Both the position numbers and the translations under genes were made by a program. The notes below the pieces were generated by a model. It searched no databases, was not told where the DNA came from, and saw only the letters and a list, made by a program, of their open reading frames with translations. Shown in pieces: positions 1,199 to 44,912 of a stretch of DNA of 64,000 nucleotides (its first letter is position 1; every line of letters begins with the position of its first letter). The stretch is from Larkinella humicola (GTDB lineage: Bacteria; Bacteroidota; Bacteroidia; Cytophagales; Spirosomataceae): NCBI RefSeq assembly GCF_008727875.1, contig NZ_VTWS01000008.1, positions 248,001 through 312,000 on the forward strand. Direction: 5' to 3'.

Positions 1199-4100
1199 AT
1201 GAAAAAACGCTTACAATTCATACCCATACCGGGTACTTTCATTCGGGCTTCGCTCCTGTTGTGCCTGTTGATGCTGGCCGTAACGGGTCTGTATGCGAAT
1301 GAAAATGCCCCCCTCGACCGGCCCATCACCGGCACCGTTAAAGATGAAAAAGGCGAAGGATTGCCAGGTGTCAGTGTCGTGCTGAAGGGCTCCACCAAAG
1401 GAACGTCCACCAATGCCGACGGCAGCTACCGCCTGGATGTTCCGGAGAACAACGCCACCCTGATTTTCTCCTTTGTCGGCTACCTGTCCAAAGAAATTTC
1501 GGTTGGCAACCAGACCCGTGTCGATGTTCAACTGGCGACCGACAACAAGGCACTCGAAGAAGTGGTTGTTGTGGGGTACGGTTCACAGCGGAAGCAGGAT
1601 ATTACCTCCGCCGTCTCGGTGATCAGCATGAAAGACATCGGCGAGCAGCCTTCCAACAACATGAACCAGTTGTTGCAGGGCCGGGCCGCGGGTGTGGTCG
1701 TAAAATCGAAGAGCGGTGCGCCCGGCGGTGTCTTCGAGGTGCGGGTTCGGGGTGTCGGTTCGTTGGGGGCCGGTAGCAATCCGCTGTATGTCATCGACGG
1801 TTTTGCCGTCGGAACCGACGTTGGACAAAACCTGAACCCGAACGACATCGAGAGCATTTCCGTCCTGAAAGATGCCGCTTCGACGGCTATTTATGGAGCC
1901 AGAGGTTCCAACGGGGTGGTTTTGATTACGACGAAGAATGCTAAAGAAGGAAAAACGAACATCAACTTTTCGCTTGATTACGGGATTCAGTCGCTTCCAA
2001 ACAGCCGGCGCGTAAAAATGCTGAACGGCGTGGAATTTGCGCAGTTCAAAAAGGAAATTTTTGAAGATCAGATCCGGATTATTCAGAAACGGGAGCCAAC
2101 CCTCGAAGAAGTTCCCATCGGTTTTCGGTATCCGGAACAAACCAAATACTCAACCGACTGGTACGGCCTGATCCTGAACAATGGTGCGCCCTACACCGAT
2201 GCCAACTTAACGATTTCTTCCGGTCAGGGGCCGCTCAAAGCGCTGCTGTCGGTCGGTTATTACAAGGAAAACGGCGTGATTAAAGAAACGAATTACGACC
2301 GGATTTCAGTGCGGTCCAACCTGGGCGGACAAGTCAACAAGTTCATCAATGTTGGTTTGAACATCAACGGAACGTATACCCGCCAAAAGCTGGCCAGTAC
2401 GGACGGACGGAGTGCCTTGCTGGGTGGTGCCCTGCTGATGGACCCGCGCGATACGCCTTACAACCCCGATGGCAGTCTAAAACCGTATAGCAACGGCGTC
2501 GATGGTGTTTTCGGCTTCCCGAATCCGCTGTTTGTGTTGAAAAATGCGCTCCGCAGAAGAAGCATTGCCGACCTGTTGACCAATGCTTTTGTCGAAGTTA
2601 CGTTTCTGAAGGATTTCAAATTCAGAACGTCGGCGAACGTTAAACTGAATAACAATACGTACAAAGAGTACATTCCGTCGACCATCGGTGCGTCGGTGGC
2701 AACAGGAACGGCCGGTGCTCCTCCGCGGATTGCCACCGAAAACGACAATACCGCCGAATTGATCAACTACTCGCTGGATCAGTTGCTGACCTATGTACCC
2801 AAAATTGGCGAACAGCATAACCTTGATTTTTTGGTGGGGTACACGGCTCAGCAGGAGCGCGTACGGGCGTTTACCGGAACCGGTAATACCTTCCCGGATG
2901 ACCTGGTTCCGTATCTGGGAGCCGCTTCCATCCGATCTGCCACTTCCTCCGAGTTTGGCTGGGTTAACCTGGCAGCACTGGCCCGCGTAAACTATTCTTA
3001 CAAAGACAAATACTTGCTTTCGGCTTCGTTCCGCCGGGAAGGCAGCTCCCGGTTTGGGGCCAAAAACAAGTACGGAAATTTCCCGGCCGCTTCCATCGGC
3101 TGGCGCGTGACGGAAGAGTCGTTCATGCCCAAAACCGACTGGCTGACCGACCTGAAACTCCGGGCGAGCTTTGGGGTGACGGGGAACAACGACATCGGTA
3201 ACTACCCCAGTCTGGCCTTCGTGGGCGCTAACAACTACATCCTGGGCAATGCGTTTGCCGCCGGGAAAGTGGTCAGTTCGTTCGCCAACTCCGAGCTGAA
3301 ATGGGAGAAATCGAATCAGTTGGACATCGGGATGGATCTGGCTCTGTTCAACAACAAGCTGACGTTTAACCTCGAATACTACAAAAAGATTACCAACGAC
3401 ATGCTGTTGCCTATTTCGATTCCGGCCGTATCCGGTTTTACCACCAGCTTGGCCAACATCGGGAAAGTACAGAACAAAGGAGTTGAAATCGGTGGTGATT
3501 TCCGGACCAACATCGGGCAAATCAATTTCCGCACCAATGCCAACATTACGTTCAACCGCAGCAAGATTCTGGCGATCAAAGGCGCGAACGACATGCTCTG
3601 GTATGGTGGTTTCTACGGCGGTTACAACGTTCAGAAAGTGGGACGGCCCATCGGGATGATCTATGGCTACCGGAAGTTAGGCATTTTCAACACCCAGGCT
3701 GAAATCGATGCCGCTCCGAAGCAGGACGGTGCCATTCCGGGCGCGATGAAATTCTTCGACGCCACGGGCGATGGTGTTATTTCCTACGATACGCAGGATA
3801 TGGTGGAAATTGGCAATCCGAATCCGGCGTTCACCTGGGCCTGGACCGTGGCCGCCGACTACAAACGCTTCGACCTGAACATTCTGTTTGTGGGTGCGCA
3901 CGATTTTGACGTCTACCGGAACATCGAGGCTTCAACGATGAACATGGATGGTGTATTTAACGTATTGGACAAAGCGAAAGATCGCTGGCGGTCACCCGAA
4001 AATCCGGGTTCCAATCCAAACGCGAAAAACTCACAGGGCGGCACCAGCTACTTCAAATGGTCGCGGGAAAGCAGCGAACGGTATGTTTACGACGGCAGTT

Positions 4101-4324
4101 ATGTCTGGCTGAAATCCATCACGCTGGGCTATACACTTCCTAAAGTGAAATCCATTCTGAGCGACGCGCGGATTTTTGTGACCACCAACAACCTGTTCCT
4201 GTTCACGAAATACCCCGGTAACAACCCGGAAGCGGGCGTACGCGGTGGCACCGAACTGAACAACGACGACGAGTCGTATCCGATTCCCAGAACATTCGCT
4301 GCTGGTCTCAAAGTAAACTTCTAA
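1199..4324 (+). CDS. SusC/RagA-family TonB-dependent outer membrane receptor (module A)
   Basis: A 1041-residue outer-membrane transporter that, with the SusD lipoprotein encoded next, imports oligosaccharides or other large ligands using TonB energy. A signal peptide covers about residues 1-34. It is followed by a carboxypeptidase-D-regulatory-like domain (ITGTVKDEKGEGLPGVSVVL, about 43-115), the TonB box EEVVVVGYG near 120-128, a plug domain containing PLYVIDGF, and a long beta-barrel ending in a C-terminal aromatic strand (AAGLKVNF). I chose the ATG at 1199 because it gives MKKRLQF plus a normal signal sequence. An upstream TTG at 1172 would add nine residues that do not look like a signal peptide. 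There is no STN domain, so a FecR relay is not built into this receptor. The substrate is unknown. Confidence 0.95.
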   Translation: MKKRLQFIPIPGTFIRASLLLCLLMLAVTGLYANENAPLDRPITGTVKDEKGEGLPGVSVVLKGSTKGTSTNADGSYRLDVPENNATLIFSFVGYLSKEISVGNQTRVDVQLATDNKALEEVVVVGYGSQRKQDITSAVSVISMKDIGEQPSNNMNQLLQGRAAGVVVKSKSGAPGGVFEVRVRGVGSLGAGSNPLYVIDGFAVGTDVGQNLNPNDIESISVLKDAASTAIYGARGSNGVVLITTKNAKEGKTNINFSLDYGIQSLPNSRRVKMLNGVEFAQFKKEIFEDQIRIIQKREPTLEEVPIGFRYPEQTKYSTDWYGLILNNGAPYTDANLTISSGQGPLKALLSVGYYKENGVIKETNYDRISVRSNLGGQVNKFINVGLNINGTYTRQKLASTDGRSALLGGALLMDPRDTPYNPDGSLKPYSNGVDGVFGFPNPLFVLKNALRRRSIADLLTNAFVEVTFLKDFKFRTSANVKLNNNTYKEYIPSTIGASVATGTAGAPPRIATENDNTAELINYSLDQLLTYVPKIGEQHNLDFLVGYTAQQERVRAFTGTGNTFPDDLVPYLGAASIRSATSSEFGWVNLAALARVNYSYKDKYLLSASFRREGSSRFGAKNKYGNFPAASIGWRVTEESFMPKTDWLTDLKLRASFGVTGNNDIGNYPSLAFVGANNYILGNAFAAGKVVSSFANSELKWEKSNQLDIGMDLALFNNKLTFNLEYYKKITNDMLLPISIPAVSGFTTSLANIGKVQNKGVEIGGDFRTNIGQINFRTNANITFNRSKILAIKGANDMLWYGGFYGGYNVQKVGRPIGMIYGYRKLGIFNTQAEIDAAPKQDGAIPGAMKFFDATGDGVISYDTQDMVEIGNPNPAFTWAWTVAADYKRFDLNILFVGAHDFDVYRNIEASTMNMDGVFNVLDKAKDRWRSPENPGSNPNAKNSQGGTSYFKWSRESSERYVYDGSYVWLKSITLGYTLPKVKSILSDARIFVTTNNLFLFTKYPGNNPEAGVRGGTELNNDDESYPIPRTFAAGLKVNF

Positions 4325-4335
4325 TTGACACAGAC

Positions 4336-5829
4336 ATGAAAAAAATAACCGCTATAGGTACGCTGCTTTTTTGTCTTGCCCAGTTTTCGTGCAAAGATGA
4401 TATGCTGGTCACCACCGACCCGACCCGGATTGGTACGGACCTTTTTTACAAGAATGAAACCCAGTTGCTGCAGGCACTGAATGGCGTATATGGTCAGCTA
4501 CAGACCATTACCGGCTCGGCCTACATTTTTCAGGAGTTTCCGTCGGACAATACGACCCTCGATTTCAACCCGCTCGACCGCGGGGGAGCGGCTGGCTGGG
4601 AGGCTTTTGAGTTTTCGACCGTTAACCAGGGAAATGGTGAAATTGCGAACGTCTGGAACCAGTATTATTCCATGATGTACAACATCAACTATGCGCTGGA
4701 AAAAATGGAGGGGAGCACGGTCGATGCAGCCGTAAAAGGTCCAATTGAAGGCCAGTTGAAGTTCATTCGGGCCTACGGTTACTTCAATATGGTTCAGTAT
4801 TTTGGTGATGTTGTGCTGGTTACGAAGACGCTGGCCAATCCGGATCCCGCTTTTGATCTCACCCGTTCTCCGCAGGCTGAAGTCTGGGCACAGGTTGAAA
4901 AAGATCTGAAAGAAGCCGTTGCGCTGCTACCAGCTACGTACCCGGCAAACCAGTTGGGACGGGTGACTAAAGGGGCCGCCCTGAGCCTGCTGGGCAAATC
5001 GTATCTGACGCAGAAGAAATACGCCGATGCCGTTACTACCCTGAAGCAGGTCACCGGGTACACTTTGAACCCGCTTTATGCCGACAATTTCAACCCGGCG
5101 AAGAAAAATGGCCCCGAATCCATCTTTGAGATTCAGTATCAGGGCGGCAATGACCTTGGCGAGCAAAGTAACTTCGCGTACCTGTTTGCCCCCCGGCTGT
5201 CGGCCGGTGCCGTGACCGGTTTTGCCAACACCACGCCGAGTGGCCGGAACATTCCGACCAACGACATGATTGCGGCCTATGAAACCGGCGACTTGCGCAA
5301 AGATGTTTCGCTGAAAACCAGCTATACCTTGAATGGCACTGTGGTCCCAATCCCATACATCATTAAGTTCACTTACCCCCACACGATTACGGGCCGGACG
5401 GACAACAACTGGCCGGTGTTGCGGTATGCCGACGTGCTGCTGATGCTGGCAGAGTCAATCAACGAAGCCACCGGTCCATCGGCGGAAGCGTTCGATTACC
5501 TGAACCAGGTGCGCAAGCGGGCGGGTCTGGCGGCCAAAACCGGTCTGGATAAGGTTGCACTCCGTGACGCGATCATGAAAGAACGCCGGGTGGAACTGGC
5601 GTTTGAAAATCACCGCTGGTTTGATTTGCGGAGAACGAAAACCCCGGCCGAATTAACCGCTTTCATGAACGCCTATGGCGCGAAAGAAAAAGCAAAACCG
5701 ACCGTCGACCGGGGTGGTATTGCCTTCAACGCGCTGGATTATGTGTATACGGACAACGAATATTACCTTCCGATTCCGGCTCCACAAATTCTGATTAGCA
5801 GCAAATTGACCCAAAATCCCGGCTACTAA
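4336..5829 (+). CDS. SusD/RagB-family nutrient-binding outer membrane lipoprotein (module A)
   Basis: This 497-residue protein starts 12 bases after the SusC stop, the normal SusC-SusD order. The signal peptide ends in AQFSC, so Cys19 is the likely lipidation site and the protein should sit on the cell surface as the lid of the SusC channel. SusD hallmarks are visible: TPR-like helices in the first half (GQLKFIRAYGYFNMVQYFGD near residues 138-157) and the C-terminal NQVRKRAGL and KERRVELAFENHRWFDLRRT motifs. It ends with the usual LTQNPGY. SusD proteins bind glycans but the sequence does not show which. A weak 10-bp inverted repeat follows the gene. Confidence 0.95.
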   Translation: MKKITAIGTLLFCLAQFSCKDDMLVTTDPTRIGTDLFYKNETQLLQALNGVYGQLQTITGSAYIFQEFPSDNTTLDFNPLDRGGAAGWEAFEFSTVNQGNGEIANVWNQYYSMMYNINYALEKMEGSTVDAAVKGPIEGQLKFIRAYGYFNMVQYFGDVVLVTKTLANPDPAFDLTRSPQAEVWAQVEKDLKEAVALLPATYPANQLGRVTKGAALSLLGKSYLTQKKYADAVTTLKQVTGYTLNPLYADNFNPAKKNGPESIFEIQYQGGNDLGEQSNFAYLFAPRLSAGAVTGFANTTPSGRNIPTNDMIAAYETGDLRKDVSLKTSYTLNGTVVPIPYIIKFTYPHTITGRTDNNWPVLRYADVLLMLAESINEATGPSAEAFDYLNQVRKRAGLAAKTGLDKVALRDAIMKERRVELAFENHRWFDLRRTKTPAELTAFMNAYGAKEKAKPTVDRGGIAFNALDYVYTDNEYYLPIPAPQILISSKLTQNPGY

Positions 5830-5857
5830 AGGAAAGTGCAGGATAGTTAATCGTAAA

Positions 5858-5920
5858 AAATGCACCTTATTGGATGGATTAATGTTAAATTAGGATTGAT
5901 CCATGCAGTGAGGTGCATTT
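5858..5920. repeat. Imperfect hairpin downstream of SusD (module A)
   Basis: AAATGCACCT (5858-5867) is repeated in inverse orientation as AGGTGCATTT (5911-5920). A weaker GGATGGATTAAT/ATTAGGATTGATCC pairing lies inside. There is no T-run after it, so it may be an mRNA-processing or partial terminator structure that lowers expression of the PSD1 gene relative to SusCD. Confidence 0.4.
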
Positions 5921-5953
5921 CCTATAAACCCGTCAACTAATCCCTATTACAAA

Positions 5954-8314
5954 GTGACCATTTTGACAGAATCCTTTTGGCTTTGGCAGTTTCTGGGTCG
6001 TCTGCATCCGTTGATCGTCCACTTTCCGGTCGGTTTGCTCTGCGTGGCCCTGTTGTTGGAAATCATTGGCTGGTCCCGCAAATCCAACGATATGCGCGCC
6101 GGTATTACGGCCCTGGTCTGGATCGGTGCCATCAGTTCGGTAGTAGCCGCGGTCCTGGGGCTCATTTTAATTAATCAGGAAGAATACGGCGGAGACACCG
6201 TCACCATTCACCAGTGGTCGGGACTTACCACCATGGCCCTGGCCATTGTGACCGGATTTGCGCTCCGTTCGGGCCGTCTGGCGCTGTACCGGAGTCTGTT
6301 GTTTCTGACGGTTTTTGGCGTCAGCATCGCCGGCCATTATGGGGCCTTACTGACCCACGGCGAAGACTATTTGACCAGCGTTCTGCCTTTCGGTAAAGAT
6401 GCGAAAGCCCCTTCGACCACCGACCCGAATCTGGCCTTCATCAGCAATACCACTCAACCGCTTACCGACAAACAGATCGAGGACCTGAACCTGGAAGTCC
6501 GGTCGATTCTCGCTCACAATTGCTACAGTTGCCACAGTGCCACCAAAACCAAAGGAGAGCTGCGGCTGGATAAGAAAGAATTGCTCTTCAAAGGGGGCGA
6601 AAACGGCGTCATTCTGAAAGCCGGTCACCCCGAAGACAGCGACATGATCCGGCGGGTGAAACTGCCGGCTGGCCACGACGACGCCATGCCAACCAAAGGC
6701 AAGCGACTGACGGACAAAGAAATAGCAATCCTCGAATTCTGGATCAAACAAGGCGCCCCCTGGCCCAGCGGTGCCGAAAAAAGCATTTACCGCGTGGCCG
6801 CTCTGGAACCCCGGATGCCCGCAATTCCGGCCGCTACCGGCGATCTGATCAACCCGGTCGACCGGTTTGTCAACGTTTACTTCCAGAAGAACAAAGTGGC
6901 CTGGAAAACCGTCGTCGACGACCGAACCTACCTGCGCCGGGTGTATCTGGACGTGGTTGGTTTGCTGCCGACGCCCGATAAAATTGCCTCGTTTACGGCG
7001 GATACCCGCCCGAACAAGCGGGAAATTCTGGTGACCGAACTGCTGAACCGCAACGAAGATTACGCCCAGCACTGGATCACGTTCTGGAATGATGCGCTGC
7101 GCAATGACTATTCCGGAACCGGTTACATCACCAAAGGACGCTTCGACATTACGAAGTGGCTCTATAGTTCCCTCAAAACGAATAAACCGTACAACCAGTT
7201 TGTGCGCGAGCTGATCAGCCCGACGGAAGAATCGGCGGGCTTTATCAAAGGCATCAAATGGCGCGGAACGATCAACTCGAGCCAGAGCACCGAAATGCAG
7301 GCGGCTCAGAACGTGTCGCAGGTGCTGCTGGGACTGAATCTGAAGTGCGCTTCGTGCCACGACAGCTTCATCAGCGACTGGAAACTGGCCGACGCCTACG
7401 CTTTCGCCAATGTGTTTTCCGACACCACCCTGGAAATTCACCGTTGCGACAAGCCGACGGGCAAAATGGCCAGCACGGGTATTCTGTTCAAAGAGCTGGG
7501 GACCATCAACGGGAAAGCCCCCACCGAGCAGCGGCTCCGCGAACTGGCCGAGTTTATGGTGCAGCCGAAAGATGGCCGACTCTACCGGACGCTCGTGAAC
7601 CGGATTTGGGCGCAGTTGATGGGCCGCGGTCTGGTCGAACCGGTCGATATGATGGACAATGAACCGTGGAGTCAGGATTTGCTGGACTGGCTGGCGTCTG
7701 ATTTTGCAGCCAACGGTTACGACATCAAGCGATTGATGACCACCATTCTGACCTCGAAAACCTACCAGTTGCCATCCATCAGCGTGAAAGATCCGGCTCT
7801 GCTCACAGCGCCGACCTTCGTGTTCGAAGGCATGGTGCGCCGTCGGCTTTCGGCCGAGCAGTTTGCCGACGCCGTCAGCATTGCCTTTAACCCGGTTTAC
7901 GGGGATTCTTCGCTGGCTACCAAGCTTTTACCGGAAACCATCAAACAGGAAATTCCCTTCCCGCGGGCGTCTCTGGTGAAAAACGACCCCTTCCTGACCG
8001 CTTTGGGACGACCCAACCGCGAAACCGTCAGCACCAGCCGGACCTCGCAGGCCAATTTGTTGCAGGCATTGGAGCTGACCAACGGGGCCAAGTTCAACGA
8101 CGCCCTGAAAAAAGGCGCGCAGATCTGGAAAGCCAAATATCCTTCGTCGGACCTGATCGTGAAAGAACTCTATCGAAACGCTCTGGGACGTGAACCACAA
8201 CCGAAGGAGTTGGCCGTTGCCGAGAAAATTGTCGGCAAAACCCCCAGTATCGAAGGCATCCAGGATCTGGTCTGGGCCATTAGCTTACACCCTGAATTTC
8301 AGTTGATCAATTAA
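5954..8314 (+). CDS. DUF2231-cytochrome c-DUF1549-DUF1553 (PSD1-type) membrane protein
   Basis: A 786-residue multidomain protein. Residues about 8-140 form a DUF2231-like membrane unit with four hydrophobic segments, beginning FLGRLHPLIVHFPVGLL. A PSCyt1-type cytochrome c domain follows with haem motif CYSCH (C190-C193-H194). A DUF1549 (PSCyt2) domain (about 300-500) carries a second haem motif CASCH (C465-C468-H469), and DUF1553 occupies the C-terminal third. Such proteins are abundant in Planctomycetes and have no established reaction. The two c-haems imply periplasmic electron transfer. The start is a GTG at 5954, since the first in-frame ATG falls inside the membrane domain. It is followed by a DUF1501 gene, as are the PSD1 genes at 27733 and 41101. 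Unlike those, it is membrane-anchored by fusion to DUF2231 rather than by a lipid. Confidence 0.85.
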   Translation: MTILTESFWLWQFLGRLHPLIVHFPVGLLCVALLLEIIGWSRKSNDMRAGITALVWIGAISSVVAAVLGLILINQEEYGGDTVTIHQWSGLTTMALAIVTGFALRSGRLALYRSLLFLTVFGVSIAGHYGALLTHGEDYLTSVLPFGKDAKAPSTTDPNLAFISNTTQPLTDKQIEDLNLEVRSILAHNCYSCHSATKTKGELRLDKKELLFKGGENGVILKAGHPEDSDMIRRVKLPAGHDDAMPTKGKRLTDKEIAILEFWIKQGAPWPSGAEKSIYRVAALEPRMPAIPAATGDLINPVDRFVNVYFQKNKVAWKTVVDDRTYLRRVYLDVVGLLPTPDKIASFTADTRPNKREILVTELLNRNEDYAQHWITFWNDALRNDYSGTGYITKGRFDITKWLYSSLKTNKPYNQFVRELISPTEESAGFIKGIKWRGTINSSQSTEMQAAQNVSQVLLGLNLKCASCHDSFISDWKLADAYAFANVFSDTTLEIHRCDKPTGKMASTGILFKELGTINGKAPTEQRLRELAEFMVQPKDGRLYRTLVNRIWAQLMGRGLVEPVDMMDNEPWSQDLLDWLASDFAANGYDIKRLMTTILTSKTYQLPSISVKDPALLTAPTFVFEGMVRRRLSAEQFADAVSIAFNPVYGDSSLATKLLPETIKQEIPFPRASLVKNDPFLTALGRPNRETVSTSRTSQANLLQALELTNGAKFNDALKKGAQIWKAKYPSSDLIVKELYRNALGREPQPKELAVAEKIVGKTPSIEGIQDLVWAISLHPEFQLIN

Positions 8315-8322
8315 AAATCACG

Positions 8323-8355
8323 AAACCTGTTAGGTCTTGGAGACCTAACAGGTTT
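8323..8355. repeat. Perfect 15-bp inverted repeat between PSD1 and DUF1501 genes
   Basis: AAACCTGTTAGGTCT (8323-8337), loop TGG, and its exact reverse complement (8341-8355), followed by TTAAAA. The same kind of CCTGTTAGGTCT palindrome is, to my recollection, a common dispersed intergenic element in Bacteroidota. Here it fills the 55-bp gap between two co-transcribed genes and could stabilise or attenuate the mRNA. Confidence 0.75.
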
Positions 8356-8369
8356 TAAAATAGAACACC

Positions 8370-34406: not shown

Positions 34407-34515
34407 CCGGACCAGGTCAATTGGCAAGATTCTATTTTTTTTCAAAATAATTCTACTTCTTTTGGTATCGCGGCCGTGATTTCGTCTATCGTATGGTATA
34501 GATGCACAGGTAGGT

Positions 34516-35643: not shown

Positions 35644-35826
35644 AGCGTACCTGTCAAGCGGGTTTATAAACTGGCTGAATTCTTTTTCTGATCGAAATAA
35701 CCTAAACCCTTAAAACTTTATGCGGTATGATGATCCCAAAAACCTGCAATCTGAAAAGGTGCCGGGCTGATTTCGTTCGATCCGGTTAACTTCCAACGCT
35801 TCCTTTCAAAACTGCTTTTCATGCTA

Positions 35827-35844
35827 CTCCCCGAAAAAGGGGAG
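35827..35844 (+). promoter_or_regulatory. Small hairpin in the SusC leader
   Basis: CTCCCC (35827-35832), loop GAAAAA, GGGGAG (35839-35844), within the 246-bp FecR-SusC gap and 45 bases before the SusC ATG. A leader RNA structure is possible. No promoter of recognisable form was seen in the rest of the gap. Confidence 0.35.
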
Positions 35845-35889
35845 CCTGGGAAACTATTGCCTGTTCAAACTCCTATACCCTTAACTTTT

Positions 35890-38800
35890 ATGAAAAAAAC
35901 CATACGGTATCAGCAGTTCGTCTATCGAATCGCCTGCCGAACGCTGGGTCTTACTGCGATTCAGACCTTGTTCGCTTTTTGCTTCGCCGGTCTGGGCTAC
36001 GCCAGCGACGGCATAGCCCAGTCGCTTCTTAATCAGAAAATCACGGTCAGAGCGCAGGAAATGGAGATTAAAACCGTTCTGAGCCAGGTGGAACGGCAGG
36101 TAGACGTCCGTTTTGTGTTTAGCTCGAAACTGATTCAATCCAGCCGGAAAATCACCCTTTCTGCCGAAAACAAACCGCTTCAACAGGTACTGGACCACAT
36201 CCTGAGCCCGCTGGGCTTGCAGTACGAACTGACCGGAAAAGTCATTATTATCAGACGCGAAGAAGCGGCACCGCTACCACTCCCGCCGGTGGGCCAGGTC
36301 GCCCCCAAGCGTACGGTTTCCGGAAAAGTGCTCGATGAAACCGGCAAAGGATTACCCGGTGTCAGTGTCGTTGTGAAAGGAACGCAGCGGGGTACGATTA
36401 CAAACGGAGAGGGGGATTTTCAGATGGAAACGGAAGACAATGCCATCCTCGTTTTTAGCTTCGTTGGCTACAAAAGCCAGGAAATGACCGTGGGCAACCA
36501 GAGCACCTTTTCCATTACGCTTGCTCCGGAAGACCGGGCGCTGGAAGAAATCGTGGTGGTGGGCTACGGAACGCAGAAACAACGGGAAGTCACCGGTTCC
36601 ATTGCATCACTACCCGCGGCCCAACTGGAAGACCAGCCGGTGGGTCAGTTGGCTCAAAAGCTTCAGGGACGCATTGCCGGTGTCCAGATCAACCAGGCTT
36701 CGGGCACACCCGGCAGCGGAATGGCCATCCGGATTCGCGGGGCGGCCTCCATCAATGCCGGTAACACACCCCTGTATGTGGTCGACGGCTTTCCGATTGT
36801 GGGCGGTATCAACAACATCAACCCCAACGAAATCGAAAATTTCTCCGTCCTGAAAGGCGCTTCGGCGGCTGCTTTATACGGTTCGCGGGCGGCCAACGGC
36901 GTGATTCTGATTACCACGAAACAGGCCAAAGAAGGCCGGACCACCATCCAGTTCAGCGCCACCTACGGCCTTGCCCAGGTTCCGCAGCGGGGGCGGGCCA
37001 AGCTCATGAATGCGAAGGAGTTTTTGCAGGACCGGAAGGAAATTTTTGAAGACAAAATTAAATACGAAGGCTACACGGGCGGCATACCGGAGCTGTATCA
37101 AAACCCCGAAGCCTATACCGGGAAAAGCACCGACTGGTATAACGAACTGTTGCAGACAGGCGGGCAGAACAGCTACAACCTTTCCATTTTGTCGAACAAG
37201 AACAATTTCAGTTCGGCCACCACTCTCGGCTATTACAAGGAAAAAGGGGTGGTATTGAACACCAATTACGAGCGGTTTTCACTGCGGTCTAACAATCAGT
37301 ACAAGATCAACGACTTCGCCCGGGTCGGCATCAACATTGCCCCAACCTATCAGCGCAGTCTGAATCAGGAAACCGACGGTTTTTACAGCACGCTCTATTC
37401 GGCCATCATCACGCCCCCCATCTTTTCGCCCGATGACAAAAACCCCGACGGTTCTGTCAAACTGAGTTTTACCGGACCGGGGCTTTTTACGTTTCCGAAC
37501 TGGAAAAAAACCTTGCTGGAAACCACCAACCGGACCAACTCAACCCGGATTTTGAGCAATGCCTACGCCGAGATCGACTTTCTGAAAAATTTCCGGTTTA
37601 AAAGCTCCCTCTCGCTGGATCTGGAGAGCCGCAAACAGCGGATTTTCAACCCGTCGACGGCGGGTGGTATTTTTGCGCCCCCGCCCAAACTGGCCACCGG
37701 CTCGTACGAAACGAATGAATATACCTCGTGGCTGACCGAGAACACCCTCAATTACAGTAAATCTTTTGCAACAGACCACCATGTTGAAGCGCTCGTGGGG
37801 TATTCGGCCCAGCAGTTCCGGCAGGAAACCAACCGGCTCACGGGCACCAGCTTTCCGGACGATGCCGTTACCTGGATCGACGCGGCTGCCATCAAAAACG
37901 GAAACAGCAGTTCCACCGAATGGTCGTTGCTCTCGATGTTTAGCCGGGTGAACTACAACTACAAAGGAAAATACCTGCTGGCCGCTTCCATTCGCCGGGA
38001 TGGCTCGTCGCGGTTTGGGTCGGCCAACCGCTGGGGTTCGTTCCCCTCCCTATCGGCGGGCTGGATTATTTCGGACGAAAGTTTCGCTCAGAAATGGAGC
38101 AGCGTGAGTTACCTGAAATTACGGGCCGAATACGGAGATGCCGGCAATTTTAACATCGGTAATTACAGCCAGTTTGGTAACATCGTCTCCACCAACTACC
38201 TGTTCGGAAACGCCCTCGTGCAGGGACGAAGCCCCAACACGATCGGGAATACCAGCCTGACCTGGGAAACCACCACCGGGATGGACATTGGGCTGGATGT
38301 GGGGCTGCTGAACGACCGGATTTCGCTGACGGCGGATTATTACAACAAAAGAACCAAGAACATGCTGTATCAGGTGGATATTCCGACGGGTACCGGTTTT
38401 TCCAACATCCAGGACAACATTGGCGAATTCCATTTCTGGGGGTATGAATTTGGCGCCACCACCCGGAATCTGGTTGGTACGCTGAAATGGACCAGCGATT
38501 TCAATATTTCGTTCAACCGAAACAAGGTCATCAAGTTAGGAACCAACGACACGCCCATCGGCGGCATCGGTAATTATTCCAGCACGATCTGGAAAACCGA
38601 AGTGGGCCATCCGATCGGGCAGTTCTACGGCTATGTGTTCGATGGCATCTACAAAACGCAGGAGGAGTTTGATTCGCAGCCCAAACACAGCACGTCCAAG
38701 GTGGGCACCATGCGCATGAAAGACATCAACGGCGACGGCATCATCAACACCCTGGATAAAACGTACATCGGCAACCCCAATCCGAAATTTGTGTATGGCA

Positions 38801-39279
38801 TCAACAATACGTTTGCCTACAAAAACCTGGATCTGAATGTTGTGATTTCGGGGGCCTACGGTGGAAAAATGTACTATGCGCTGGCGGAATGGACCGAAAC
38901 CCTGGAAGGGATTTTCAATGTCGAAACGTACATGAAAGACCGCTGGCGGTCGCCCGAAAACCCCGGTGCCGGTATTGTTGGACGGTCACTGTCAGGAACC
39001 ACCGAATTTCCGCGTAATGTGCAGGACCGTCTGGCGCTCGATGCTTCGTACCTGACCGTAAAAAACATCACACTGGGCTACACCCTGCCGAAAGTATCGC
39101 GCTACATCACCAAATCCCGGATTTTTCTGAGTGTGCAGCAGGCGCTGGTCTTGACCAAATACAAAGGAGCCAATCCGGAAGCCAGTTTCAACGGGTTGAG
39201 CGGCCTGAGCGAAGGGGTCGACATCAGCCCGTATCCGGTTCCACGGACGTTTGCGCTGGGCCTGAATCTGAATTTTTAA
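35890..39279 (+). CDS. STN-containing SusC-type TonB-dependent receptor (module C)
   Basis: An 1129-residue receptor with an extra N-terminal signalling domain. Signal peptide about 1-44, STN domain about 50-122 (ITVRAQEMEIKTVLSQVERQ and the VIIIRREE end), carboxypeptidase-D-regulatory-like domain about 142-215, TonB box EEIVVVGYG near 219-227, plug with PLYVVDGFPIVGG, and barrel ending GLNLNF. I chose the ATG at 35890, which begins MKKTIRYQQF and a signal peptide; an in-frame ATG at 35821 would place a hydrophilic 23-residue leader before it. The STN domain contacts FecR, consistent with the sigma and FecR genes directly upstream. It is the only receptor of the three SusC proteins built for self-induction. 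Confidence 0.95.
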   Translation: MKKTIRYQQFVYRIACRTLGLTAIQTLFAFCFAGLGYASDGIAQSLLNQKITVRAQEMEIKTVLSQVERQVDVRFVFSSKLIQSSRKITLSAENKPLQQVLDHILSPLGLQYELTGKVIIIRREEAAPLPLPPVGQVAPKRTVSGKVLDETGKGLPGVSVVVKGTQRGTITNGEGDFQMETEDNAILVFSFVGYKSQEMTVGNQSTFSITLAPEDRALEEIVVVGYGTQKQREVTGSIASLPAAQLEDQPVGQLAQKLQGRIAGVQINQASGTPGSGMAIRIRGAASINAGNTPLYVVDGFPIVGGINNINPNEIENFSVLKGASAAALYGSRAANGVILITTKQAKEGRTTIQFSATYGLAQVPQRGRAKLMNAKEFLQDRKEIFEDKIKYEGYTGGIPELYQNPEAYTGKSTDWYNELLQTGGQNSYNLSILSNKNNFSSATTLGYYKEKGVVLNTNYERFSLRSNNQYKINDFARVGINIAPTYQRSLNQETDGFYSTLYSAIITPPIFSPDDKNPDGSVKLSFTGPGLFTFPNWKKTLLETTNRTNSTRILSNAYAEIDFLKNFRFKSSLSLDLESRKQRIFNPSTAGGIFAPPPKLATGSYETNEYTSWLTENTLNYSKSFATDHHVEALVGYSAQQFRQETNRLTGTSFPDDAVTWIDAAAIKNGNSSSTEWSLLSMFSRVNYNYKGKYLLAASIRRDGSSRFGSANRWGSFPSLSAGWIISDESFAQKWSSVSYLKLRAEYGDAGNFNIGNYSQFGNIVSTNYLFGNALVQGRSPNTIGNTSLTWETTTGMDIGLDVGLLNDRISLTADYYNKRTKNMLYQVDIPTGTGFSNIQDNIGEFHFWGYEFGATTRNLVGTLKWTSDFNISFNRNKVIKLGTNDTPIGGIGNYSSTIWKTEVGHPIGQFYGYVFDGIYKTQEEFDSQPKHSTSKVGTMRMKDINGDGIINTLDKTYIGNPNPKFVYGINNTFAYKNLDLNVVISGAYGGKMYYALAEWTETLEGIFNVETYMKDRWRSPENPGAGIVGRSLSGTTEFPRNVQDRLALDASYLTVKNITLGYTLPKVSRYITKSRIFLSVQQALVLTKYKGANPEASFNGLSGLSEGVDISPYPVPRTFALGLNLNF

Positions 39280-39299
39280 TCGTATCGAAAATCAAAGAC

Positions 39300-40838
39300 A
39301 TGAAAAAGCTCCTGTATCTATCGCTTTTAACGACCCTGCTCCTGATGGGCTGTTCCGAAGATTTTCTGGAACGCGTGCCGGAAAGCTCCGTCACCTCCGG
39401 TAATTTTTACCAGACCGAAGCCCAGTTCGAACAGGCCATGGTGGGTGCCTACGCGGCTGTCCGGGACGCCAAAGGATCGATTGCCGCCTGGTGCATGGGC
39501 GAGATGCGATCGGACAACACGCACCTTGAGTTCAACAACACCAACCGCGGACCGGCCTACATCGAACGGGAATACACCGATTTCTTTCTGGATGATGTGA
39601 CCAGTACGCTCGTCGCCGACAAGTACAACCGGTGTTACGTCGGCATTGCCCGCGCCAACAGCATCATCGACTATTTGCCTAGCGCGGGGCTGAGCCAACA
39701 GGTGGCCGACCGGCTGACGGGGCAGGCCCGGTTTCTGCGGGCGTTGTTTTACTTTGATCTGGTACGGTATTTTGGCGGGGTTCCGCTGTACCTGAAAGCC
39801 GTATCGGGCGCCGGTGATGCCTATCTTCCGCGTTCGTCCGTCGACGAGGTGTATAAAGTCATTGTCGACGATCTGAAAGACGCCATTGCCAAACTACCGG
39901 CACCGGCGTTTCCGCAAACGGGACGCGCCACGCAGGCAGCGGCTAAAATGCTGCTGGCCGATGTGTATCTGACGCAGAAGAATTTTGCGCTGGCCGAAAC
40001 CGAACTGAAAGGGATTACCCCGATGGGCTTTTCACTCCTGCCCGACTATGCCTCGGTTTTCAGTTTGTCGAATAAAAACAGCCGGGAGTCGCTGTTCGAG
40101 ATTCAGTACCAGCAGGGCAATCAGGGGCAAAACAGCAACTTTCTGTATCCGTTTCTGCCCCTGGCTTCGGATGTCAGCAAGATCACCGGCATCACCTCCC
40201 AAAACCGCCAGGGGGGCGGCTGGAACGTGCCGACGTTCGAGATGATCGGCACCTACGAACCCGGCGACAAGCGGCTGGAAGCGTCGATTGGCATTGCGGA
40301 AGGCACCGGCGTGGTGGGCGATATGGCCATTGAAACCCTGAAAAGCCCGGTTGGCTACGTCAAACCGGCGGGTAAAAGGGCGTACCCGTACATCAAAAAG
40401 TACCTGCACGCCCACAGCCTGGAGCAGAATACCGACGACAATTTCCCGGTTTATCGTTATTCCGATGTGCTCCTGGGGCTGGCCGAGGCCCTCAATGAAC
40501 AAAATAAAGGTGCCGAAGCGCTGACCTACCTAAACCCGGTTCGGGTGCGGGCGGGTCTGGCCCCGTCGACGCAAACCAGTCAGGCGGCTTTGCGGGACCT
40601 GATCGCCCACGAACGGCGCGTTGAATTTGCCTTTGAAAACAAACGGTGGCTGGATTTGGTCCGCACCGGCAAAGCCATCGAGGTGATGAACAAGAACGGG
40701 GAGTACATCAAGGCGTTTCATGCCGGCGAATCGTATCTGCCCGGTACCAGTTACGCAGTGACCCAGAACCGTCTGCTTTTTCCGATACCCAACCGCGAAA
40801 TATTAATCGGAAAGCTGCAACAAAATCCGGGTTATTAA
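39300..40838 (+). CDS. SusD/RagB-family outer membrane lipoprotein (module C)
   Basis: A 512-residue SusD homologue starting 21 bases after its SusC. The signal peptide ends LLMGC (Cys18), followed directly by SEDFLERVPESSVTSGNFY, a common SusD N-terminus. Conserved elements include TGQARFLRALFYFDLVRYFG, NPVRVRAGLAPS and HERRVEFAFENKRWLDLVRT, and the C-terminus ends LQQNPGY. It captures the ligand at the cell surface. The intergenic region after it contains two palindromic elements before the PSD1 gene, so the downstream pair may be expressed at a lower level. Confidence 0.95.
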   Translation: MKKLLYLSLLTTLLLMGCSEDFLERVPESSVTSGNFYQTEAQFEQAMVGAYAAVRDAKGSIAAWCMGEMRSDNTHLEFNNTNRGPAYIEREYTDFFLDDVTSTLVADKYNRCYVGIARANSIIDYLPSAGLSQQVADRLTGQARFLRALFYFDLVRYFGGVPLYLKAVSGAGDAYLPRSSVDEVYKVIVDDLKDAIAKLPAPAFPQTGRATQAAAKMLLADVYLTQKNFALAETELKGITPMGFSLLPDYASVFSLSNKNSRESLFEIQYQQGNQGQNSNFLYPFLPLASDVSKITGITSQNRQGGGWNVPTFEMIGTYEPGDKRLEASIGIAEGTGVVGDMAIETLKSPVGYVKPAGKRAYPYIKKYLHAHSLEQNTDDNFPVYRYSDVLLGLAEALNEQNKGAEALTYLNPVRVRAGLAPSTQTSQAALRDLIAHERRVEFAFENKRWLDLVRTGKAIEVMNKNGEYIKAFHAGESYLPGTSYAVTQNRLLFPIPNREILIGKLQQNPGY

Positions 40839-41100: not shown

Positions 41101-43449
41101 ATGAAAAGGCTTTCTTATTTGCTGTTCATGGTGGCCGGTGGTGCAGGTGCTTTCCAATCCTGCTCTACGGGCTTGTCGAGCGGGTCAGCGGAGGAGAAAC
41201 TACCGGAAACCGTCAGCTACAACTTTGACATTCGGCCCATTCTGTCGGATAAATGCCTGGCCTGCCACGGACCGGATGCCAACAAACGGGAAGCCGGTCT
41301 GCGGCTCGATGTCGCCGAAAGCGCCTTCAAAGCCCTCGCCGAAAACCCGACGGCCCACGCGCTGGTGGCCGGGAAGCCCGAACTGTCGGAGGCTTTCCGG
41401 CGCATTACTACGCCGGATACCTCCCTGCTGATGCCGCCCCCGTCGTCCAACCTGAAGCTCTCCACCCGCGAAATCGACCTGATTGAAAAGTGGATCAAAC
41501 AGGGGGCGAAGTACGAAAAACACTGGGCATTTGTGGCTCCCAAAAAAACCGCCCTGCCGCCCATCGATCAGACGGAGTGGCCACGGAATGAAATCGATTA
41601 TTTCATTCTCCACAAACAGGAGCAGAAAAGGCTGGCCCCCAACGAAGAATCCGATAAGGAACGCCTGCTCAAGCGCGTCAGTCTGGACCTGACCGGATTG
41701 CCGCCCACCTTGTCGATGATGGATCAGTTTCTGGCCGACAACAGTCCAACAGCCTACGAAAAAGCGGTCGATCAGTTGCTGAAAAGTCCGGCCTACGGCG
41801 AAAAAATGGCGCTGCACTGGCTGGATCTGGCCCGGTATGCCGACTCCTACGGCTATCAGATGGATAATTTCCGGACGCAGTGGCCCTGGCGGGATTGGGT
41901 CATTCATGCCTTCAACCAGAACATGCCGTACGACCGGTTTATCACCTGGCAACTGGCGGGCGACCTGCTGCCCGTACCGCCCGGTGGTGCATCCAGCAAG
42001 GAGCAACTCCTGGCCACCGGTTTTAACCGCAACCATAAAATCACCGAAGAAGGGGCCGTCGACGAAGAAGAATACCGGGTGACCTACGTGACCGACCGCA
42101 ACGACACCTTCGGCAAAGGGCTGCTGGGCATCACGCTGGAATGTGCGCATTGCCACGACCACAAGTATGACCCGTTTTCGCAGAAAGAATATTACCAGCT
42201 CTTCGCCTTTTTCAACAACGTCGATGAAATGCGCTCCAAATACACGGCCATCGACCCCGATGTCGGCAAACCGGAGTCGTATGCCAAAAAACCGCTGATG
42301 GAAATCAGTAACGACGACGTAAAGAGCCTGTTAAAGTTCATCAACAAACCGGACACCAGCCGCCTGATTGTGTCCGTCATGGGCGATCTGGACACGCTTC
42401 GCAAAACGTACATTCTGAAACGGGGGGTTTTCGATGCTTACGGCGACGAAGTACAGCCCGGCACTCCCGCGTCCATTCTGCCTTTCAATGCTACTTATCC
42501 CAAAAACCGGCTGGGACTGGCCCAATGGCTGGTTGACCGGAAAAATCCGCTAACGGCCCGCGTTTATGTCAATCGCATCTGGCAGGAATTCTTCGGGCGG
42601 GGCATTGTCAAAACCGCCGGCGACTTCGGCATGCAGGGCGAGCTTCCTTCCCATCCGGAACTGCTGGACTGGCTGGCCGTCGACTTTATGCAGCACGGCT
42701 GGAACATCAAACGGCTGGTCAGGCAGATCGTCACATCGGCCACCTACCGCCAGTCGATTGTCGTTACGCCCAAAAAGCTGCGGGCCGATCCGGAGAACGT
42801 GTTGCTGGCCCGGGCACCGCGTTACCACCTACCGGCCGAACTGGTGAAAGATCTGGTGCTGGCCAGCAGCGGTCTGCTCAACCGGACCATCGGTGGCCCC
42901 AGTGTAAAACCGTATCAGCCAGCCGGTCTGTGGGAAAGCGCCACCGCCGGGGGCGACGGCATGTTGTCGACCTACAACCAGGATCACGGCCCGGCTTTGT
43001 ACCGGCGCGGCATGTACACGTTCATCAAGCGAACCGTTCCGCCCCCCTCTATGGCCATTTTCGATGCCAGTAACCGCGACCAGTGCGAGGTAGGACGGAG
43101 CAAAACCAATACGCCTTTGCAGGCCCTGGTGATGATGAACGACCCCACGGTGCTGGAAGCCTCGCGGGTGCTGGCGGCCCGTCTGTTGCAGGAAAACACC
43201 GGGATGGAAACCAAAATCGGCAAAGCCTTCCGGCTGATTGTGAATCGAAAACCGACCCAGCCGGAACTGAGCGTACTCGTGACCTATTTCGGGGAGGAAA
43301 TGCAAACGATAAAAACGACGGAGATTGAAAACGTGCTGGCCGTCGGGGAGTATCCGGTTCCCGAAAAGATCGATAAAAAGCGGCTGGCGGCCCTGATGCG
43401 CGTGGTATCGATGATTTACAACCTGGAAGAATCCATTACTAAATCCTGA
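41101..43449 (+). CDS. PSD1-type haem lipoprotein (PSCyt1-DUF1549-DUF1553), copy C
   Basis: A 782-residue lipoprotein (signal peptide ending FQSC, Cys21) collinear with the protein at 27733. Its haem site is CLACH (C52-C55-H56) in PSCyt1, with a second site CAHCH near residues 347-351 in DUF1549 and DUF1553 in the C-terminal 40 percent. Long stretches are identical or nearly so to copy B, such as NFDIRPILSDKCLACHGPDA. Differences cluster in the signal peptide and in a short insertion (VPPGGAS) before the second haem. They also appear around residues 370-385, where this copy reads MRSKYTAIDPDVGK. Two copies differing mainly in surface segments suggest the same chemistry on different partners or substrates. 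The DUF1501 gene follows after five bases. Confidence 0.9.
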   Translation: MKRLSYLLFMVAGGAGAFQSCSTGLSSGSAEEKLPETVSYNFDIRPILSDKCLACHGPDANKREAGLRLDVAESAFKALAENPTAHALVAGKPELSEAFRRITTPDTSLLMPPPSSNLKLSTREIDLIEKWIKQGAKYEKHWAFVAPKKTALPPIDQTEWPRNEIDYFILHKQEQKRLAPNEESDKERLLKRVSLDLTGLPPTLSMMDQFLADNSPTAYEKAVDQLLKSPAYGEKMALHWLDLARYADSYGYQMDNFRTQWPWRDWVIHAFNQNMPYDRFITWQLAGDLLPVPPGGASSKEQLLATGFNRNHKITEEGAVDEEEYRVTYVTDRNDTFGKGLLGITLECAHCHDHKYDPFSQKEYYQLFAFFNNVDEMRSKYTAIDPDVGKPESYAKKPLMEISNDDVKSLLKFINKPDTSRLIVSVMGDLDTLRKTYILKRGVFDAYGDEVQPGTPASILPFNATYPKNRLGLAQWLVDRKNPLTARVYVNRIWQEFFGRGIVKTAGDFGMQGELPSHPELLDWLAVDFMQHGWNIKRLVRQIVTSATYRQSIVVTPKKLRADPENVLLARAPRYHLPAELVKDLVLASSGLLNRTIGGPSVKPYQPAGLWESATAGGDGMLSTYNQDHGPALYRRGMYTFIKRTVPPPSMAIFDASNRDQCEVGRSKTNTPLQALVMMNDPTVLEASRVLAARLLQENTGMETKIGKAFRLIVNRKPTQPELSVLVTYFGEEMQTIKTTEIENVLAVGEYPVPEKIDKKRLAALMRVVSMIYNLEESITKS

Positions 43450-43454
43450 CCGCT

Positions 43455-44912
43455 ATGGAAAAAGAACTGCTGGACCATTTGCTGACCTTCAACCGGCGTC
43501 GGTTTTTCTCGAAACTGAGTCTGGGCCTGGGCAGTGCTGCGCTGGGTTCGCTGCTGATACCGGATCTGTTTAGTAAAAACAGCGATTCCGACGAGCCTGA
43601 TTTCATTCCCGGAACCCCGCATTTTGCCCCGAAGGCCAAGCGGGTCATTTATTTGTTCCAGAATGGCGCTCCCTCTCAGCTCGAAACGTTCGACTACAAA
43701 CCCAAATTACGGGAGCTTTTTGGCAAAGACCTCCCGCCGTCGGTGCGGGGTGGGCAGCGACTCACCGGTTTTACGGCCACCCAGGCCTCCCTGCCCCTGG
43801 CCGGATCGTTCGTCGATTTCAAGCAGTATGGGCAGTCGCGGGCGTGGGTGAGCGATCTGTTGCCGCACATGGCCAGCATTGTGGATGATCTGTGCATCGT
43901 GAAATCCATGCACACCGAAGCCATCAACCACGACCCGGCCATCACGTTTTTCCAGACCGGTGCCCAGCAGGGCAACCGCCCGAGCATGGGGTCGTGGCTG
44001 AGCTATGGGCTGGGCAATGAAAATAAAAACCTGCCCAATTTCACGGTCTTGATTTCTCGGGGAAAAGGCAACAGCCAGGGGGTATATTCCAAGCTGTGGT
44101 CGAACGGTTTTCTGGATTCGATTCACCAGGGGGTGCAGTTCAGCAAGGGCGAAGATCCAGTGTTGTACCTGCGCGACCCGGAAGGCATGAGCCGCCAGTC
44201 GCGCCGAAAAATGCTTGACCGCCTGGCGGAATTGAACCAGTTGGCCTACGAGGAAGTGCATGATCCGGAGATCAATGCCAAAATCAAGCAGTACGAAATG
44301 GCGTACCGGATGCAAACCGCCGTGCCGGAAATTACGGACCTGTCGAAAGAACCGGACGACATCATCAAGCTCTACGGCTCCGACTGTCTGATTCCCGGAA
44401 CCTTTGCCGCCAACTGCCTGCTGGCCCGGAAGTTATCCGAAAACGGCGTGCGGTTTGTACAGTTATACCACCAGGGCTGGGATCAGCACGTCAATTTGCC
44501 CGTAGAGATTACCGGCCAGACCAAAGACGTCGATCAGGCATCGGCGGCTCTGGTGACCGACCTCAAACAACGCGGACTGCTCGACGAAACGCTGGTGATC
44601 TGGGGCGGTGAGTTTGGCCGCACCTGCTTCAGCCAGGGCAAGCTGACGAAAGAGAATTACGGTCGCGACCACCACCCGCGCAGTTTCACGATCTGGATGG
44701 CCGGGGGCGGTATCAAACCCGGCATGGTGTACGGCGAAACCGACGAATTCGGCTATAACACCATTGCCAACCCCGTTCACGTCCACGATTTTCAGGCGAC
44801 GGTTTTGCACCAGTTGGGCCTCAATCACGAGAAGCTGGTTTTCAAACACCTCGGCCGCCGGTACCGGCTAACGGATGTTTCGGGGAAGGTGGTGCGGGAT
44901 ATTCTGGCGTGA
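43455..44912 (+). CDS. DUF1501 family Tat-exported protein, copy C
   Basis: A 485-residue paralogue of the protein at 30063, with Tat signal FNRRRFFSKLSLGLGSAALG. The conserved HQGWDQHVNLP, WGGEFGRT and GRDHHPRSFTIWMAGGG segments carry probable metal ligands. DNA identity to copy B is strikingly high in blocks (for instance 44086-44176 against 30691-30781) while other parts have diverged. That suggests recent duplication or gene conversion. It starts five bases after the PSD1 stop, so the two are surely co-translated. The reaction is not established for the family. It is the last gene of the plus-strand cluster and is followed by a bidirectional terminator. Confidence 0.88.
   Translation: MEKELLDHLLTFNRRRFFSKLSLGLGSAALGSLLIPDLFSKNSDSDEPDFIPGTPHFAPKAKRVIYLFQNGAPSQLETFDYKPKLRELFGKDLPPSVRGGQRLTGFTATQASLPLAGSFVDFKQYGQSRAWVSDLLPHMASIVDDLCIVKSMHTEAINHDPAITFFQTGAQQGNRPSMGSWLSYGLGNENKNLPNFTVLISRGKGNSQGVYSKLWSNGFLDSIHQGVQFSKGEDPVLYLRDPEGMSRQSRRKMLDRLAELNQLAYEEVHDPEINAKIKQYEMAYRMQTAVPEITDLSKEPDDIIKLYGSDCLIPGTFAANCLLARKLSENGVRFVQLYHQGWDQHVNLPVEITGQTKDVDQASAALVTDLKQRGLLDETLVIWGGEFGRTCFSQGKLTKENYGRDHHPRSFTIWMAGGGIKPGMVYGETDEFGYNTIANPVHVHDFQATVLHQLGLNHEKLVFKHLGRRYRLTDVSGKVVRDILA

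Follow-up and report, generated by a model that had tools for sequence, protein, structure and literature searches.

The question raised by this locus is why genes for SusC-SusD importers stand three times over beside genes for haem proteins of the PSD1 (DUF1553) family and for proteins of the DUF1501 family. It lies in a stretch of 64,000 nucleotides from Larkinella humicola (contig NZ_VTWS01000008.1, positions 248,001 to 312,000), which we call the window and whose own numbering is used throughout. An earlier note had taken the three occurrences for like modules, in each of which PSD1 and DUF1501 would form one periplasmic enzyme system coupled to SusCD uptake. The order SusC-SusD, PSD1, DUF1501 does occur three times, with all nine genes in place and their domains above the Pfam cut-offs. 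We propose that, over its first two thirds, the window would hold a single system for taking up and breaking down sugar in place of three repeats, namely a periplasmic, cytochrome-linked 3-keto-sugar pathway that is fed by SusCD and in which one distinct PSD1-DUF1501 pair takes part; we put the probability of this reading at about 0.48. The strongest clue is a catabolic operon situated inside the supposed second module, of which the earlier note made no use.

The genes were identified by a Pfam scan of 24 chosen genes within 1172-44912, all on the plus strand. They fall into a SusCD pair with a fused-type PSD1-DUF1501 pair (1172-9803), the catabolic operon (10114-27593) and two cassettes of a general type (27733-33731 and 41101-44912). 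SusC 1 (1172-4324; Plug, CarbopepD_reg_2 and TonB barrel) and SusD 1 (4336-5829; SusD_RagB) precede a gene (5954-8314) whose product joins DUF2231 (residues 17-131), PSCyt1 (190-236), PSCyt2 (301-491) and PSD1 (530-758), with CxxCH haem motifs at residues 190-194 in PSCyt1 and 465-469 in PSCyt2. This DUF2231-fused protein is referred to as PSD1f, and its neighbour (8370-9803), a divergent DUF1501 protein with a twin-arginine translocation (Tat) signal and, by its N-terminus, lipoprotein-like, as DUF1501f. The PSD1 of module 1 is 32% identical to that of module 2, against 79% between modules 2 and 3, whose DUF1501 proteins are 85% identical. Judged by these identities, the PSD1 and DUF1501 genes of modules 2 and 3 are paralogues and copies of a general PSD1-DUF1501 cassette. 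Together with the phylogenetic separation of the three SusDs, the figures rule out three equal SusCD modules: the gene order that the earlier note had described is real, and the modules are not alike, the first being divergent and the second split by the operon.

This operon begins with SusC 2 (10114-13404) and SusD 2 (13434-14954), and its other nine genes fill the interval from SusD 2 to the second PSD1. The first of these encodes SorbCyt (15269-17962), a haem protein of the type found in the Planctomycetes-Verrucomicrobia-Chlamydiae (PVC) group, with a C-terminal cytochrome c (Cytochrom_C) and a match to TIGR02603 above the cut-off; TIGR02604 proteins have an N-terminal beta-propeller, and no propeller domain matched here. 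The next gene (18074-18862) encodes a lipoprotein-like member of the DUF1080, or 3-keto-disaccharide hydrolase, family (PF06439, 3.8e-34), a match that speaks for family membership only. It is followed by a DUF4432, aldose-1-epimerase-like gene (18898-20043; PF14486; PDB 3ty1, 8e-24) and by CupinX (20073-21296), which served as the operon marker and in which no signal peptide was seen. CupinX matched no Pfam or NCBIfam model, and a PDB profile search gave phosphomannose isomerases only at E 0.07-0.08; beyond these weak matches, the name phosphomannose-isomerase-like is our assumption. A xylose-isomerase-like triosephosphate isomerase (TIM) barrel of 369 aa follows (21343-22452); regarding an LgdB1-type eliminase, the PF01261 barrel is present and no model or PDB sequence match names it. 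The Gfo/Idh/MocA oxidoreductase (22577-23740) is nearest to levoglucosan dehydrogenase (NF052479, below cut-off; PDB 4h3v and 6a3f), and the operon closes with an RbsA-type sugar ATP-binding cassette (ABC) ATPase (23912-25402), an RbsC-type permease (25426-26409) and a lipoprotein-like RbsB-type sugar-binding protein (26640-27593; Pfam/NCBIfam and PDB searches, N-terminus). Sugar-redox enzymes are thus present among the window's genes, in keeping with the oxidative character suggested earlier. PDB sequence searches with the DUF1501, PSD1, CupinX and TIM-barrel proteins returned no informative match.

The operon is a recurrent unit. Its order, SusC-SusD-SorbCyt-DUF1080-DUF4432-CupinX-TIM-GfoIdh(-RbsA-C-B), was found in 20 further CupinX loci. 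Of the named loci, the best 80 of 576 were considered, among them Dyadobacter fermentans and several Spirosoma, and 53 of these 80 span at least 19 kb; among the 53, DUF1080 is present in 50, DUF4432 and the TIM barrel in 51 each, the Gfo/Idh gene in 52, SorbCyt in 37, SusD in 22 and RbsB in 23. CupinX is 74-92% identical to the window's protein in near full-length matches of the order (80 and 64% in two partial ones), with a mean column identity of 81% over 17 rows; in the phylum, a relative was found in 18 of 296 sampled genomes, 10 of them scoring above 500 bits. Variants gain additional TIM barrels, ThuA or an alpha/beta hydrolase; locus L144, for instance, has two extra TIM barrels with ThuA and an alpha/beta hydrolase. 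The operon begins with DUF1080 and extra genes in L139, L140, L144 and L145, whereas in L138 the cytochrome and DUF1080 genes are missing from their place. The branch of these four, to which Dyadobacter loci such as L172 and L194 also belong, has DUF1080 first, carries the extra genes and shows no cytochrome gene directly ahead of the operon. In L146 a sulfatase-like gene (L146:16351-17703), whose best NCBIfam score of 139.5 bits is below cut-off, separates SusD from the cytochrome gene.

The presence of PSD1f follows that of this operon across genomes. Presence was called at E <= 1e-60, with at most three scored candidates per genome for PSD1f, C1LRR (a member of the general cassette described below) and GH95, and at most six for CupinX and a phosphodiesterase. 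In 291 genomes of the order, PSD1f orthologues (51-77% identity) were found in 59 and CupinX in 65; both were present in 57, PSD1f only in 2, CupinX only in 8 and neither in 224, which corresponds to a phi coefficient of 0.90. The window's phosphodiesterase (45156-46397; found in 68 of the 291) and GH95 (in 121), used as decoys, gave 0.48 and 0.50, respectively. The association holds inside the organism's own family (46 genomes: both 38, PSD1f only 0, CupinX only 3, neither 5; phi 0.76) and outside it (245 genomes: both 19, PSD1f only 2, CupinX only 5, neither 219; phi 0.83). One genus, with 11 genomes among the matches listed, is divided into seven that have both genes and four that have neither. 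In these seven, PSD1f and CupinX are found on separate contigs or at a distance of 230 kb; neither the phosphodiesterase (phi -0.04) nor GH95 (0.45) follows the split, and C1LRR is present in all 11.

Position ties the two in part as well. PSD1f and CupinX start within 20 kb of each other in 16 of the 57 genomes, from families f1, f5, f12 and f19. DUF1501f is followed directly by the cytochrome gene in L105, L109, L154 and L199, after one intervening gene in L181 and L184 (the latter from Sphingobacteriales), and after SusCD 2, as in the window, in L103 and L095; in L104, DUF4432-CupinX comes after DUF1501f with one short open reading frame (ORF) between. L154, in which the two units adjoin, belongs to Fibrella forsythiae. 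A few loci, namely L199/L105, L160/L138, L189/L141 and L229/L145, are probably one and the same in each pair.

We then asked how far SusCD belongs with PSD1f. A SusD gene stands directly upstream of PSD1f in 11 of 25 loci, from seven genera in three families. In a tree of 44 SusD rows, the window's SusD 1 falls with these 11 SusDs into a single clade of 12 (97/94). A second group of 19 (84/100, a node not starred) unites SusD 2 with its relatives, most of them beside the cytochrome gene, and 13 rows including SusD 3 stand apart, several on long branches. In seven loci (L091-L094, L108, L130 and L097) PSD1f-DUF1501f is directly followed by a general PSD1 and then by C1LRR, and in six of them a general DUF1501 was called between these two; its absence in L097 is probably a calling error, ORFs having been called by longest-ORF rules, under which L099 and L100 showed none. 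Two CxxCH motifs were counted in 25 of 28 proteins labelled as fused, one in two proteins and three in one; the 28 include L045 and L046, which are short PSCyt1 proteins (480 and 468 aa). With two motifs also in 60 of 61 general PSD1s, the two c-type haems of the earlier note received support, as did the two-gene unit itself, a DUF1501 gene lying at most two genes after PSD1 for 80 of 84 PSD1 genes.

For the general pairs the picture is different. Copy 1 comprises a lipoprotein-like PSCyt1-PSCyt2-PSD1 protein (27733-30057), a Tat DUF1501 protein (30057-31517) and, as third member, C1LRR (31557-33731), which has PSCyt1 and CHB_HEX_C/Fn3_assoc domains, a DUF2231 score of 25.7 bits, just below the cut-off of 26.4, and weak, below-cut-off matches to leucine-rich repeats. 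The paralogues at 41101-43449 (PSD1) and 43455-44912 (DUF1501) make up the other cassette, and a twin-arginine motif lies near the N-terminus of each of the window's three DUF1501s (8370, 30057 and 43455). Profile searches of the 7.86-Mb genome gave 10 DUF1501, 9 PSD1 and 70 SusD matches, and by coordinates 8 of the 9 PSD1 matches adjoin a DUF1501 match. The surroundings of 40 DUF1501/PSD1 loci were inspected over up to 20 kb. Of these loci, hand-picked from the top matches of a longer list, 8 belong to the same genome and 32 to other genomes, with no more than two taken per genus; among them L036 and L037 have DUF1501 without PSD1, L038 PSD1 without DUF1501, and L048 no profile match. In L048 overlapping plus-strand frames were selected by the ORF rules, hence the missing match; its DUF1501 match (G042:C3:455866-457134, minus strand; stretch 446500-466400) lies within an open frame of 1561 aa, perhaps a fusion.

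At none of these 40 loci does a same-strand SusD immediately precede PSD1, and at one (L034, from the same genome) it lies within three genes upstream. Anywhere in the 20 kb SusD was detected at 5 of 40, or at least 6 with a Pfam-detectable SusD at the edge of L032 that our profile (three window seeds, iterated) had missed, against 4 of 20 controls at fixed positions in seven single-contig genomes, in which SusDs may be undercounted too; there is no enrichment. Around 15 C1LRR homologues SusD was directly upstream in none and anywhere in the stretch in two. A general linkage of PSD1-DUF1501 to SusCD, as the earlier note had proposed, fails on these loci, its frequency being that of the background, an outcome that the note itself had named as speaking against it; the linkage holds for one subfamily, the DUF2231-fused PSD1. 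Set beside 0/40 and 0/15, the 11/25 of the fused loci indicates that the arrangement of module 1 is not due to chance.

Downstream of general DUF1501 genes, a SusD on the same strand within seven genes was found for 6 of 59 (L061, L091, L093, L094, L116 and L117). The order PSD1-DUF1501-C1LRR-sigma-FecR-SusC-SusD in L116 and L117 equals that of the window at 27733-40838, where a sigma gene of the extracytoplasmic function (ECF) type (33798-34406) and FecR (34516-35643) precede SusCD 3 (35821-40838; SusC from 35821, SusD from 39300), whose SusC alone of the window's three has an STN domain. Their SusC is 40% and their SusD 33-34% identical to the window's, so that the gene order recurs without transporter orthology; the best relatives of SusC 3 and SusD 3 in the examined loci reach only 49% and 47%.

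Predicted structures were obtained for a DUF1501 protein and for PSD1f. The DUF1501 model (mean predicted local distance difference test score, pLDDT, 71) matched sulfatases, phosphonate hydrolases and LtaS in Foldseek, the best being the carrageenan sulfatase 9hh2 (E 4.8e-8), with 194 of 701 matches at E <= 0.001; by its modelled fold DUF1501 is placed in the sulfatase/alkaline phosphatase superfamily. The formylglycine motif C/S-x-P/A-x-R is absent from residues 41-200 of 84 of 85 DUF1501s, on which ground we reject DUF1501 as a formylglycine sulfatase. Invariant in 38 aligned sequences are His159, Asp343, His345, Glu386, Arg389 and His407. The predicted fold counts in favour of the Tat-folded metalloprotein partner of the earlier note; a metal in DUF1501f itself is our expectation. 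The PSD1f model (pLDDT 76, predicted TM-score 0.69, residues 131-163 poorly modelled) is mainly helical and gave 113 Foldseek matches in the PDB, none at E <= 0.001. Its DUF2231 part consists of four long helices with five conserved histidines: in 66 DUF2231-PSCyt1 proteins His18, His23, His86 and His128 are invariant and His135 is kept in 65. In the model they occupy the first halves of helices 1 and 3 and the latter half of helix 4, on the side that leads on to the haem domain, and the cluster may bind haem or a metal.

On this basis we propose the following pathway. SusCD 1 and 2 would bring a small glycoside into the periplasm. Proteins linked to cytochrome c would oxidise it there, C3 being the most likely position; these would be SorbCyt (15269) and PSD1f, a di-haem protein anchored in the membrane, together with DUF1501f, its putative metal-binding partner of sulfatase fold. 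From the PSCyt haems, electrons would reach the quinone pool by way of the clustered histidines in the DUF2231 membrane domain. The DUF1080 lipoprotein would cleave the 3-keto-glycoside without a classical glycosidase; in the accessible part of PMC9007349, the DUF1080 family member BT2157 hydrolyses 3-ketotrehalose, and for a member from Caulobacter the proposed role is that of a periplasmic 3'-ketolactose hydrolase acting after a membrane-bound dehydrogenase. RbsABC would take up the resulting 3-keto (or anhydro) sugar, which DUF4432, CupinX, the TIM barrel and the enzyme resembling levoglucosan dehydrogenase would convert into a glycolytic sugar by epimerisation, isomerisation and reduction. 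The two general cassettes (27733 and 41101) would be members of the general family that joined the locus. We read the operon in this way because it joins traits of 3-keto and levoglucosan pathways to SusCD and is accompanied by PSD1f in 57 of 65 genomes. Gene content and order, compartment signals, haem motifs, the predicted DUF1501 fold and the genome-level coupling of PSD1f with the operon are what we observed; C3 oxidation, the electron path, the DUF1501f metal, the identity of the dehydrogenase and the substrate we infer. Participation of PSD1f is supported by co-occurrence and position, its chemistry, as dehydrogenase or electron carrier, is our guess, and DUF1501f, instead of acting as a hydrolase, may be the partner that binds substrate or metal.

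Several observations weigh against this pathway. The DUF1080 family also includes THTE_1561, an endo-xanthanase/lichenase (PMC9007349, in the part available), so that ordinary hydrolysis is possible. Both structural models are moderate (pLDDT 71 and 76), the DUF1501 fold matches have TM-scores of 0.26-0.42 and root-mean-square deviations of 8-19 A in the 50 rows shown, and Ser74, invariant in 25 general DUF1501s, is replaced by Ala throughout the 13 fused-subfamily partners. As to the operon's own enzymes, SorbCyt scores 66 bits against TIGR02604 (cut-off 122), and the Gfo/Idh protein 333.9 bits against the LgdA equivalog NF052479 (cut-off 650) and 35.6 of 750 and 32.3 of 650 bits against the BT_2158 and BT_2159 models. 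As to the coupling, the 57 joint occurrences count genomes, not independent events, the first look at PSD1f scored three candidates per genome, and the general gene C1LRR, present in 75 genomes, co-occurs with CupinX too (phi 0.72). Eight CupinX genomes have no PSD1f, which is therefore not strictly needed; it lies more than 20 kb from CupinX in 41 of the 57 genomes and within 10 kb in 4 of the 53 long named loci, and in L098, L099, L100, L126 and L128 no operon gene is among the neighbours shown.

Other explanations were considered. PSD1-DUF1501 could be a general periplasmic redox or hydrolase module with many targets, whose proximity to SusCD is mostly accidental, so that only the catabolic operon serves sugar use. 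The spread of the family fits such a module, DUF1501 being present in 99 of 101 genomes of the organism's own family and 10 times in this genome, as does the background-level SusD linkage of general loci. It is likewise in agreement with the neighbouring genes: on the same strand near general pairs, among the 83 of 90 neighbours scanned (seven short ones were dropped), only PSCyt1 (15), DUF2231 (9) and LRR_4 (9) recur, the next family being found 4 times. We consider it less probable than the pathway above; it leaves unexplained both the coupling of PSD1f with CupinX (57 of 59) and the SusD directly upstream of PSD1f in 11 of 25 loci.

Less probable still, in our judgement, is a route for a levoglucosan-like anhydro-sugar or cyclic glycoside in which PSD1f-DUF1501f would strip a sulfate or phosphate decoration before uptake, with no oxidation. 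The Gfo/Idh protein nearest to levoglucosan dehydrogenase would suit it, and so would the sugar ABC importer and PF01261 barrel, which levoglucosan loci also contain (PMC10066097, as far as its accessible text goes); decoration removal could draw on the sulfatase- and phosphonate-hydrolase-like fold of DUF1501 and on the sulfatase-like gene inside the operon of L146. Against it stand the absence of the C/S-x-P/A-x-R motif from 84 of 85 DUF1501s and the Ala that replaces the conserved Ser in the fused subfamily, and the two haems would be left idle. The haem proteins might also reduce a periplasmic substrate with quinol electrons instead of oxidising one, since the direction of electron flow is unreadable from sequence; this we regard as very improbable, as a DUF1080 protein that acts like BT2157 needs an oxidised glycoside (PMC9007349, in the part available).

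The 3-keto-sugar pathway, if true, would amount to a glycosidase-free, cytochrome-linked SusCD system. Carbohydrate-active enzymes are the usual marker of SusCD loci, and such a system would change how these loci are recognised. The earlier statement that no glycosidases accompany these SusCD genes stands for the 24 scanned genes; elsewhere in the window a GH95 gene (55860-58457, minus strand) lies 11 kb beyond module 3. Just past module 3, also on the minus strand, the type I phosphodiesterase gene (45156-46397) stands beside a RhaT-like permease gene (46405-47511). The fused subfamily offers an entry point to the function of PSD1 and DUF1501: its phyletic profile and, in part, its position link it to an operon of guessable and assayable chemistry, in genera that are in culture. 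Planctomycetes carry many PSD1 and DUF1501 copies. More broadly, and with considerable doubt, PSD1-DUF1501 could be a two-part periplasmic redox enzyme of a new kind, in which an all-helical di-haem protein and a sulfatase-fold metalloprotein that has lost ester hydrolysis pass electrons from sugars to the membrane; the fused Bacteroidota version would be tied to one pathway, and the Planctomycetes copies would be substrate-diversified relatives, an oxidative counterpart of glycosidases. In the open-licence literature surveyed, as far as its accessible text goes, PSD1 (DUF1553) and DUF1501 have no assigned function, and we found no open-licence work combining DUF1501, DUF1553 and SusD, nor any on a 3-keto pathway with SusD.

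In comparison with known systems, the locus shares with a classic Sus-type polysaccharide utilisation locus the adjacent susC-susD pairs and, ahead of the third pair, the sigma/FecR genes; it differs in that, the possible case of DUF1080 apart, the scan of the 24 genes recognised no glycoside hydrolase, lyase or esterase. With the PSCyt/PSD clusters of Verrucomicrobia and Planctomycetes it has the same domain families in common, there adjoining other unknown families; in freshwater Verrucomicrobia, PSCyt genes beside such families may mirror glycosidases in carbohydrate use (PMC5615132, accessible part). SusCD, the DUF2231 fusion and a defined catabolic operon go unmentioned in that part of the source. 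Like the LgdA-LgdB1-LgdB2-LgdC pathway, whose loci contain TIM barrels and an ABC importer beside an LgdA-type Gfo/Idh protein (PMC10066097, in the part available), the window has an LgdA-like Gfo/Idh protein, a PF01261 TIM barrel and a sugar ABC importer; its Gfo/Idh protein reaches 334 of the 650 bits required for LgdA, and cytochromes, DUF1080 and SusCD go unmentioned for levoglucosan loci in the same part of that paper.

The nearest parallels are BT2157/BT2158 and the Caulobacter LacABC system with its DUF1080 protein. LacABC is a dehydrogenase of the glucose-methanol-choline (GMC) type. A lipoprotein-like DUF1080 protein, a Gfo/Idh protein, a TIM barrel and adjacent redox enzymes are common to these systems and the window, as far as the accessible portions of the sources describe them; BT2158 is there a periplasmic glycoside 3-dehydrogenase (PMC11300592). 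The window's Gfo/Idh protein is not an equivalog of BT_2158 or BT_2159, and Pfam detected no GMC-type dehydrogenase in the operon. The window has instead a PVC-type cytochrome protein and PSD1f-DUF1501f, and to the shared set it adds the SusCD pairs, CupinX, DUF4432 and RbsABC.

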